DNA of 64,000 bases from Ramlibacter agri. Its GTDB lineage: Bacteria > Pseudomonadota > Gammaproteobacteria > Burkholderiales > Burkholderiaceae_C. The notes under the pieces were generated by a model. The model was given only the letters and a program-made list of their open reading frames with translations. It ran no database searches and had not been told where the DNA came from. Location of the stretch: NCBI RefSeq assembly GCF_012927085.1, contig NZ_JABBFX010000001.1:1-64000 (forward strand), written 5' to 3'. The position numbers were made by a program, and so were the translations under genes. Positions 10,127 to 12,167 of the stretch are shown here, in pieces. Numbering within the stretch: the stretch's first letter is position 1; each line of letters starts with the position of its first letter.

Positions 10127-10167
10127 ACTTCCGGACGCAAAAGCCGCAAAGGTCACGCAAAGAACGC
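10127..10167 (+). repeat. Left inverted repeat flanking the GxxExxY gene
   Basis: Reads inward from ACTTCCGGACGCAAA on the plus strand and iterates a short GCAAAG/CGCAAA unit, ending near CGCAAAAGGGAA. It matches the right arm (10574-10630), which reads inward on the minus strand, over almost its full length except for a 12-13 nt gap. Translated in one frame, both arms give a PDAK..AK..VTQRTQK peptide. It sits just upstream of trpG and about 20 nt beyond the GxxExxY stop codon. Confidence 0.8.
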
Positions 10168-10188
10168 AAAAGGGAATCAGTGAGGACT

Positions 10189-10563
10189 TCATAGCTTGTT
10201 GACGACCCTGTGGATTCCCTTGACGACAGGGAACGAATGAAAGTTGATCAGGAGCCCGATCTTGTGTCCCGAAAGCCGGAGGTAGGACAGCAATTGCGCT
10301 CGGTGTACGTCCAACACTCCGTCCAAGGCCTTGAGCTCGACGAGCACTGAATCTTCGACAAGAAAGTCAGCACGGTACAAGACGCCGATGTCGCGACCTT
10401 TGTAGTGGCCCGAAATTGGCAACTCTCTGGCGCACCGGAGTCCGCGCTCCGTAAGCTCGATGGCGAACGCCGCCGCGTAAGCACTCTCCAGGAGTCCGAC
10501 TCCGAGCACTCTCTGCACCTCGACCGCCGCCCCGATGATGTCGTGGGAACAGTCCCCCTCCAT
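10189..10563 (-). CDS. GxxExxY protein (PDDEXK_3, PD-(D/E)XK nuclease-like superfamily)
   Basis: Small protein of 124 aa, the usual family length. The name-giving motif is G23-L-L-E26-S-A-Y29. The nuclease-like core is D66 (RADFLVEDS) and E76-L-K78 (VLVELKAL), followed by HRAQLLSYLRLSG and GLLINFHS. Real activity of the family is not established to my knowledge. ATG at 10563 has AAGGAA about 9 nt upstream. A longer version from ATG 10647 would overlap the trpE stop as ATGA but only adds residues translated from the repeat. It is cotranscribed within the trp operon and bracketed by inverted repeats, so it looks like an inserted cassette. Confidence 0.88.
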   Translation of the reverse strand: MEGDCSHDIIGAAVEVQRVLGVGLLESAYAAAFAIELTERGLRCARELPISGHYKGRDIGVLYRADFLVEDSVLVELKALDGVLDVHRAQLLSYLRLSGHKIGLLINFHSFPVVKGIHRVVNKL

Positions 10564-10573
10564 TTCAGGCTGT

Positions 10574-10630
10574 TCCTTTTGCGTCCTTTGCGTAACCTTT
10601 TCGCCCTTTGCGCCCTTTGCGTCCGGAAGT
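10574..10630 (-). repeat. Right inverted repeat flanking the GxxExxY gene
   Basis: On the minus strand this begins ACTTCCGGACGCAAAGGGC and continues as repeated GCAAAGG/GCGAAAAGG units to CGCAAAAGGAA, mirroring 10127-10167 in inverted orientation. It starts 14 nt after the trpE stop codon and also supplies the likely ribosome-binding sequence of the GxxExxY gene. Confidence 0.8.
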
Positions 10631-10643
10631 TGGATGTCGGTCT

Positions 10644-12167
10644 TCATTCCAACCCCTCCTCGACCAACTCGGACGCGCGCAGCAAGGCCCGCGCCTTGGC
10701 TTCGGTTTCCTTCCACTCCATCTCTGGAACGGAGTCGGCCACCACGCCTGCAGCCGCCTGCACATAAAGGGTGGAATCCTTGATGATGCCGGTCCGGATC
10801 GCGATCGCCACGTCCATGTCGCCCGCGTAGCTGAGGTAGCCGCAGGCGCCGCCGTACAGACCGCGCTTGTTCGGTTCCAGCTGGTCGATCAGTTCCATCG
10901 CGTGCACCTTCGGCGCGCCGGTCAGCGTGCCGGCCGGGAAGGTGGCGCGCAGGACGTCCATGTTGCTCATGCCGTCCTTGAGGATGCCTTCGACGTTGCT
11001 CACGATGTGCATCACGTGGCTGTAACGCTCCACCGCGAACGCCTCGGTCACCTTCACCGTGCCGGTCTTGGCGATGCGGCCGATGTCGTTGCGCGCCAGG
11101 TCGATCAGCATCACGTGCTCGGCCCGCTCCTTCTGGTCGGCCACCAGCTCCTTCTGCACAGCCTCGTCGACCTCAGGCGTCGCACCGCGCGGGCGCGTGC
11201 CGGCCAGCGGCCGGATGGTCACCTTCTCGCCGGCGTCCGTGTACTCGTGCCGCACCAGGATCTCCGGCGAGGCTCCCACCACATGGAAGTCGCCGCCGCC
11301 GCTGGCCAGCGTGCCGGTGAGGTTGTAGTAGTACATGTAGGGGCTGGGGTTCAGCGAACGCAGCGCCCGGTACAGCGACAGCGGCGACTCGGTGTAGCGC
11401 TTCTTGATGCGCTGGCCCACCTGCACCTGCATGAAGTCGCCGGCGGCGATCAGCTCCTTGGCCCGGTCCACGGCCTTCAGGTAGTCGGCCTTCGCGAATT
11501 CGCGTTCGGCCGGGAAGCTTTCGGTCTGCTTCACCACCGGGGCGCTCACCGAGTACTTCAGCTGCTCCTTCAGTTCGCGCAGGCGCTTCTTGCCGTTGCT
11601 GTACGCCTCCGCCTTGCCAGGGTCGGCATAGACGATCAGGTACAGCTTGCCCGAGAGGTTGTCGATGACCGCCAGCTCCTCGCATTGCAGCAGCAGGATG
11701 TCCGGGCAATGCAGCGTGTCCTGCGGGCAGCTCGCTTCGAGCTTCTTCTCGATGTAGCGCACCGTGTCGTAGCCGAAGTAGCCGGCCAGGCCACCGCAGA
11801 AGCGCGGCAGCCCCGGCCGCAGGGCTACCTTGAAGCGCTTCTGGTAGGCCTCGATGAAATCCAGCGGATTGCCGGCGGCCGTCTCGACGACCTGGCCGTC
11901 GGTGACGACCTCGGTCTTGGCCTCGGCGCCGAAACCGCTCGCGCGCAGGAAGGTGCGCGCCGGCAGGCCGATGAAGCTGTAGCGCCCGAAGCGCTCGCCG
12001 CCGACGACGGACTCCAGCAGGAAGCTGAGCTTGCCGCCGCCACGGGCGTGCGCCAGCTTCAGGTAAAGCGAGAGCGGGGTTTCGAGGTCCGCGAAGGCCT
12101 CGGCAATGAGGGGAATGCGGTTGTAGCCTTGCAACGCAAGGCTCTTGAATTCGAGTTCGGTGATCAA
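10644..12167 (-). CDS. trpE: Anthranilate synthase component I
   Basis: Converts chorismate to anthranilate, 507 aa. The N-terminal feedback domain contains LETPLSLYLKL (the LLES-like tryptophan site is LLESVVGGERFGRYSFIG). The C-terminal chorismate-binding domain has VGQRIKKRY, HVVGASPEILVR, IRPLAGTRPRG, LIDLARNDIGRI and YSHVMHIVSNV. No ATG fits; TTG at 12167 with GGAGG 7 nt upstream gives the family-typical N terminus MITELEFKSLALQGYNR. It is preceded by a leader peptide and hairpin. Confidence 0.97.
   Translation of the reverse strand: MITELEFKSLALQGYNRIPLIAEAFADLETPLSLYLKLAHARGGGKLSFLLESVVGGERFGRYSFIGLPARTFLRASGFGAEAKTEVVTDGQVVETAAGNPLDFIEAYQKRFKVALRPGLPRFCGGLAGYFGYDTVRYIEKKLEASCPQDTLHCPDILLLQCEELAVIDNLSGKLYLIVYADPGKAEAYSNGKKRLRELKEQLKYSVSAPVVKQTESFPAEREFAKADYLKAVDRAKELIAAGDFMQVQVGQRIKKRYTESPLSLYRALRSLNPSPYMYYYNLTGTLASGGGDFHVVGASPEILVRHEYTDAGEKVTIRPLAGTRPRGATPEVDEAVQKELVADQKERAEHVMLIDLARNDIGRIAKTGTVKVTEAFAVERYSHVMHIVSNVEGILKDGMSNMDVLRATFPAGTLTGAPKVHAMELIDQLEPNKRGLYGGACGYLSYAGDMDVAIAIRTGIIKDSTLYVQAAAGVVADSVPEMEWKETEAKARALLRASELVEEGLE

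Follow-up and report, generated by a model that had tools for sequence, protein, structure and literature searches.

What is a small nuclease-like gene doing between trpE and trpG, enclosed by two matching inverted repeats? The question is raised by a locus in the first 64,000 nucleotides (nt) of contig NZ_JABBFX010000001.1 of Ramlibacter agri (assembly GCF_012927085.1); this whole stretch is called the window below, and the genome carrying it is labelled G000. The gene belongs to the GxxExxY family, and we consider it probable, with considerable room for doubt, that it is the copy carrying the enzyme in a repeat system of two parts, similar to REPIN-RAYT yet based on a nuclease of the Cas4/RecB fold. 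One part of such a system would be the single GxxExxY nuclease gene, boxed by inverted arms of iterated CRCNNAG units, and the other a population of elements of ~100 base pairs (bp) that share these arms and have a short loop where the gene would be. The nuclease most likely recognises the CRCNNAG units by sequence and would cut at or near them, after which host repair may both seed new element copies and convert existing elements to the unit type read by the enzyme.

The armed gene and its dispersed copies

The locus comprises the following features.

10189..10563, minus strand: GxxExxY gene, core open reading frame (ORF) of 124 amino acids plus stop
10189..10647, minus strand: extended reading of the GxxExxY gene from the ATG overlapping the trpE stop, an open frame with MKTDIQLPDAKGAKGEKVTQRTQKEQPEMEGD... 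through the arm
10574..10630, no strand: inverted arm on the 5' side of the gene, iterated CGCAAAG-type units facing the gene
10127..10173, no strand: inverted arm on the 3' side of the gene, iterated CGCAAAG-type units facing the gene
10104..10643, no strand: the insert as a whole when compared with empty junctions, 540 nt from the trpE TGA to the trpG ATG
10644..12167, minus strand: trpE (flank), ORF with a match in relatives
9531..10103, minus strand: trpG (flank), ORF with its ATG at 10103-10101

The gene order on the minus strand is trpE, GxxExxY gene, trpG. A preliminary description of the locus had proposed a gene between matching inverted arms with the trp ends intact, and both points are confirmed, as both flanking frames, trpE and trpG, are intact and the arms (10127-10173 and 10574-10630) pair over 41 nt (10133-10173 with 10575-10615, 85% complementary) and over 26 nt (10127-10152 with 10605-10630, 92% complementary). 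Both arms read inward from ACTTCCGGACGCAAA, which, with up to two mismatches allowed, has two occurrences in the 64-kb window, both exact, against a chance mean of 0.06. Across the 7.2-Mb Ramlibacter genome, where the PF13366 gene is single copy, the arm start has 113 matches at up to two mismatches (51 exact) and the backward pattern 34, and many of the matches form inward-facing pairs ~100 bp apart. The same arms are thus found at many other genomic loci, and these dispersed same-arm elements support the REP-like layout that the preliminary description had suspected.

The dispersed palindromes are ~104 bp long and number dozens in the genome. Of 40 stretches taken, 37 were picked for a visible pair; the 40 yielded 37 elements, as L087, L117, and L118 held none within the size limit. 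In L087 (700-2100; G000:C1 ~1778234-1779435), a region that by eye resembles an IS3-like transposase lies in the element loop, and the arms are 1.2 kb apart. The elements consist of ACTTCCGG, about four units RCGCAAARG of 9-11 nt, a short variable loop, and then the inverse. The gene copy thus has the build of these elements, the gene replacing the loop. The elements lie in intergenic gaps, often directly after stop codons, and in L092, L099, and L111 8-nt repeats like GGACTTCC / CCGGAAGT continue beyond the arms, leaving the true ends of the elements unclear.

Such a setting also invites an explanation by host regulation: the elements would be hairpins that benefit the cell, for instance as terminators where genes converge, their DNA or RNA would be the target of a domesticated nuclease that binds the units, and mobility would be slight or absent. 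We regard this as rather unlikely, though it has evidence in its favour. For the 24 of the 37 elements whose gaps on the two sides each measure -10 to 70 nt, the neighbours (open frames picked by GC content at third codon positions rather than annotated genes, with orientation read by eye) are convergent in 12 cases, tandem in 12, and divergent in none. The hairpins are strong, with a mean DNA minimum free energy of -43.8 kcal/mol and a mean z of -12.9 against 50 mononucleotide shuffles of each of the 37, and RAYTs have themselves been termed domesticated in passages of PMC8049555. Pairing, however, is seemingly not the maintained trait, since arms within an element resemble each other no more than arms taken from separate elements do (mean score 29.3 vs 29.8, with 8072 of 10000 permutations as high), and it was rejected as such. 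Judged on these sequences, recognition of the units by a protein would fit better than base pairing as the preserved feature. A known RNA family was likewise rejected, as seven loci gave no Rfam match at the gathering threshold.

The protein itself is a full-length member of its family (PDDEXK_3), matching TIGR04256 (E 3.4e-37, 127.4 bits, cut-off 35) and PF13366 (E 3e-35, 121.5 bits, cut-off 22), and the NCBIfam and Pfam scan gave no other family above cut-off. Alignments show the PD-(D/E)XK residues E27, D67, E77, and K79 (numbered on window:10192-10566, minus strand), and Q91xxxY95 is present as well. The AlphaFold2 model, with a predicted local distance difference test score of 95.6, has the RecB/Cas4 core fold, and the protein is most likely, as predicted, a small Cas4/RecB-fold PD-(D/E)XK nuclease. 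It shares this core with Cas4/RecB-like nucleases and differs from Cas4, whose iron-sulfur site has four cysteines, in having only two and hence no such site; no cas gene was recognised beside it among the window ORFs. In the window's family, the PD-(D/E)XK residues are kept in 39 of 40 armed genes, which argues against the regulatory reading, and at least one is lacking in all 10 armless genes. The accessible portions of the open-access literature on GxxExxY, PDDEXK_3, TIGR04256, and PF13366 hold bare annotations and describe no function or repeat.

Gene and elements among relatives

Do the elements follow the gene in other genomes? The pattern CGCRRARRNCGCRRARR was run over the same 399 family genomes that were searched for the gene, with a threshold of at least 25 hits summed over the two strands, the tabulated counts being assessed by eye; hit figures such as 60/61 are paired counts, not fractions. 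A strict pattern had missed true copies, as had the first CAC pattern, with which arms of period 8 cannot be matched, and both were replaced by others. The threshold was reached by 16 of 26 gene-positive genomes vs none of 373 gene-negative ones (highest 22). Among the gene-positive genomes below it, G071, G180, G272, G341, and G402 have armless genes missing a catalytic residue, G072, G281, and G362 have CAC-type arms, and the arms of G158 are not fitted by the pattern used. In a genus set of 60 genomes, six of them also among the 399, 18 of 23 gene-positive vs 1 of 37 gene-negative genomes are repeat-rich. Among genera with gene-positive as well as gene-negative species, agreement is seen in g16, g27, g72, g100 (for G331), g140, g14, and most of g1. 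A trpE tree built from 32 genomes of the genus shows 2-3 strongly supported independent contrasts (6-8 on all branches), all in the expected direction. The association of gene and elements is therefore strong by count and modest by independent events in the genus, because only 2-3 contrasts sit on well supported branches. Presence and absence of the repeats mostly follow those of the gene, which points to a hitherto undescribed repeat system driven by an enzyme; in it, the gene would drive the elements and not vice versa. Elements are missing from most gene-negative relatives, which again speaks against a role in host regulation.

The reverse order of events would be a homing parasite, a nuclease gene homing into palindromes that arose independently. 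The gene does occupy the loop place of one element, homing nucleases of the PD-(D/E)XK type are known, and Foldseek returned a weak row for I-Bth0305I (E 0.23). Elements should then be common without the gene, yet no gene-negative family genome reaches 25 CGC hits, and there is one gene copy despite dozens of elements, making this explanation improbable.

A closer link between gene and elements is found in the units, as each gene's arms predict the dispersed element type in its own genome. The dispersed CGC-type units have the middle letters AAA in 74% of cases in G000, AGA in 88% in G002, GAA in 68% in G123, and GAA in 71% in G130 (tallies of 62, 37, 38, and 45 hits, respectively, not all hits), while the corresponding gene arms have AAA (100%), AGA (100%), GAA (75%), and GAA (100%). 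The tally of G312, taken from windows overlapping on a few elements, is weak (AGA 0.45, GAA 0.32; gene arms AGA). G281, with CACAGATG arms, has 23/20 dispersed hits of the CACAGATG type, whereas a search of 18 other genomes gave a single hit of this type, in one of them. The CACAGAGG-armed genomes G021, G072, and G362 have 31/40, 30/27, and 64/77 hits of their own type, with backward controls of 0/0, 17/13, and 2/1, and none of this type occurs in G000, G008, G123, or G281. G002 contains a second gene (L147, G002:C1:1596895) that is armed and intact, with arms matching the dispersed elements; its trpE-trpG copy is changed and armless. In the protein, residue 52 tracks unit position 5, being S or Q with A in 16 of 18 cases vs 13 of 62 others. 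As the top of a column scan with only ~2 supported independent contrasts, it is a lead only for a possible specificity residue.

Orthologous sites were sought by the flanks of six G000 elements in 14 genus genomes, and L115 and L089 proved usable; L101 gave one distant two-sided match without an element, and L092 and L096 gave no match. At L115, six gene-positive genomes besides G000 have an element at the same place (7 species), and the gene-negative G014, G001, G005, and G018 have none. The units at this site are of the AGA type in G008 (7/8), G013 (7/8), and G038 (6/7) and of the AAA type in G003 (5/7), G007 (6/8), and G031 (7/8), in all six the main class of the genome's own gene arms, so that either existing units are being rewritten there or the site is a repeated target. 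The retention of the element in 7 species could also be taken as a sign of host regulation, as could an unrelated long hairpin (GGGGTTCGC...GCGAACCCC type) that occupies the L115 site in the gene-negative G012 and G032 (L256, L260). The L089 element is present in G000 and absent in the gene-positive G007, G003, G008, G038, and G013, so that it was either gained on the way to G000 or lost several times.

Several observations weigh against an enzyme-driven system. No movement of elements was seen, the 37 elements include no near-identical recent copies (best pair 90.6%), and a scan for target duplication, itself affected by the uncertain element ends, found 4-bp repeats at 2 of 37 and none at 2, 3, 5, 6, or 8 bp. 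Armed genes are accompanied by few hits in G222 (4/7) and few elements in G016 (10/11), and the genera g48 (G222) and g31 do not agree. Elements also occur where no gene was detected, in G011 (60/61 hits) and G046 (10/10), and CACAGAG elements in the gene-negative g31 genomes G089 (17/24), G295 (15/11), and G421 (14/19), with G214 lacking them; by the CACAGAGG pattern, 3 of 11 gene-negative genomes tried have elements. Such elements in G011, G046, G089, G295, and G421 are possibly relics after gene loss or the work of another mobiliser, and a gene may have been missed through an assembly gap. The backward control of G072 is high, probably because a tandem array also matches the backward pattern. 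Residues and arms do not always go together: in the wider set, outside the family, 19 of 31 genes without two-sided arms by the measure used have all four residues, among them two Chryseobacterium genes (L197, L231) with no visible arms, which may use another recognition unit or have another role. Conversely, the armed gene of G028 (L150) has K79E in a genome still rich in elements, which may reflect a recently inactivated gene or an alignment shift. Finally, the co-occurrence is partly shared ancestry, and the independent contrasts are too few for significance.

The trpE-trpG location

Why the gene lies between trpE and trpG is a separate matter. In 72 of 130 loci (some genomes counted twice, and with the trpG query in the wrong frame there and in the right frame in the junction reading), trpE and/or trpG is found in the same locus; these belong to Beta- and Gammaproteobacteria and include Undibacterium, Deefgea, Thioalkalivibrio, and a gammaproteobacterial metagenome-assembled genome. 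Hence, trpE-trpG is a recurrent or long-held location, and the clean single insertion of the preliminary description does not stand as worded. Directly joined trpE and trpG do exist: the 30 trpE-trpG junctions read in the genus comprise 18 with an armed gene, 3 with an armless gene, 1 with another ORF, and 8 empty, five of the latter with the trpE TGA overlapping the trpG ATG and three with 3-8 nt between. The junction of G050 (L021) contains ~290 nt that by eye resemble a chorismate mutase gene and no nuclease. The earlier interpretation as a whole holds in part, and its idea of a mobile unit for the most part: dispersed arms and empty junctions favour it, and a single gene copy with neither movement nor target duplication seen does not.

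An ordinary ancestral gene of the trp operon, with coincidental repeats, would account for the frequency of the trp location, and dead copies in Variovorax and Ramlibacter remain in frame, with nonsynonymous and synonymous divergence of 0.007 and 0.14 in close pairs. For those dead copies the ancestral reading may apply. It is contradicted by empty junctions within the genus, by a location requiring at least seven changes on a weakly resolved gene tree, by loci of other phyla that carry arms without trp, and by G021 and G009, sisters by trpE, whose genes are 51% identical (59/116) and have different arms at the same site. Given the empty junctions and the different genes at one site, it was rejected for armed genes, and overall we give it very little credence.

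The right-hand arm of the window gene could be translated, as the open frame continues through it to an ATG overlapping the trpE stop (ATGA, 10647-10644). Many of the trpE genes concerned end in ATGA, and the upstream ATGA of trp-located armed genes is in frame in 25 of 33, out of frame in 4, and absent in 4. From this overlap we infer that the arm may be read as a K/Q-rich tail in a gene coupled to trpE. Of the translated arms and the cotranscription with trp claimed previously, the open frame is confirmed, and cotranscription, which rests on the overlap only, is not supported as worded.

Wider range and known systems

How far does the arrangement extend? Named genomes were scanned with an alignment of 29 proteins, and the best 80 of 523 confirmed loci were analysed. 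These span Proteobacteria, Bacteroidota, Planctomycetota, Acidobacteriota, Chloroflexota, Verrucomicrobiota, Methanothrix, and others. Inward chains of at least two CRCNVAG units flank the gene on both sides in 51 of the best 80 loci vs 0 of 1480 windows elsewhere in the loci, and outward chains in 3 of 80 vs 1 of 1480; the test was not blind, because the unit CRCNNAG was defined after the arms had been seen. By gapped local inverted-arm scoring, 34 of these 80 loci exceed the 99th percentile of the null and 18 its maximum. Short dispersed elements away from the gene were found within four loci (Brachymonas, Deefgea, Thioalkalivibrio, Methanothrix), with an outward control of 0. Relatives of the gene are present at one locus in viral contigs and in 8 of 72,556 plasmid records, and a phage or plasmid origin was rejected on these figures. 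They also disfavour a nuclease role in defence, against phages or otherwise, in which the arms would label self DNA. Only the nuclease fold speaks for it; the arms are constant, and with no PADLOC family match this highly implausible role was rejected.

The closest likeness is to REPIN-RAYT (REPtron, TnpA-REP), in which, according to passages of PMC8049555, there is usually one enzyme gene per genome, linked to the surrounding repeat, and RAYT-bearing genomes hold more elements. Here too, one enzyme gene is linked to its own repeat, non-autonomous inverted-pair elements are dispersed between genes, and enzyme-bearing genomes are richer in them. As in the same passages the RAYT gene was not seen on plasmids, the rarity of GxxExxY there (8 plasmids, one viral locus) can be set beside it. 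The two differ in enzyme, PD-(D/E)XK in GxxExxY and an HUH single-tyrosine transposase in RAYT, and in the repeats, which in the former are arrays of 8-11 nt CRCNNAG units without a GTAG tag and in the latter, as described in passages of PMC8266576, GTAG-tagged palindromes cut at CT. In the window arms CGTC occurs only as the complement of GACG, and the CACAGAG arms read without a GTAG/CGTC tag. Unlike RAYT, the GxxExxY gene often lies between trpE and trpG, its frame running through its own arm. The open-access papers listed for REP systems with nucleases deal with REP, RAYT, HUH, and IS elements, apart from some unrelated ones, and none of the best-ranked papers listed for repeats in these genera concerns such a system. 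Miniature inverted-repeat transposable elements with an autonomous partner are similar in that the ends of the short copies recur in one copy that carries the gene; here the copies are diverse and none near identical, no target duplication was found (4-bp repeats at 2/37), and the NCBIfam and Pfam scan showed no DDE transposase family.

More tentatively, GxxExxY nucleases of bacteria and archaea in general could act as a sequence-specific repeat drive, each reading its own CRCNNAG type and rewriting and spreading hairpins genome-wide, orthologous sites included; once catalysis is lost, arms and elements would decay while the protein may stay in the trp operon. If true, the system would give a function to a widespread family bearing only a motif name and offer natural pairs of enzyme and recognition unit for specificity work, along with cases of dead nucleases retained in an amino-acid operon. 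Translated arms may explain the odd N termini of database proteins. A second, unrelated enzyme class would have reached the REPIN-RAYT way of life, and why bacteria keep such populations would become testable by comparison.
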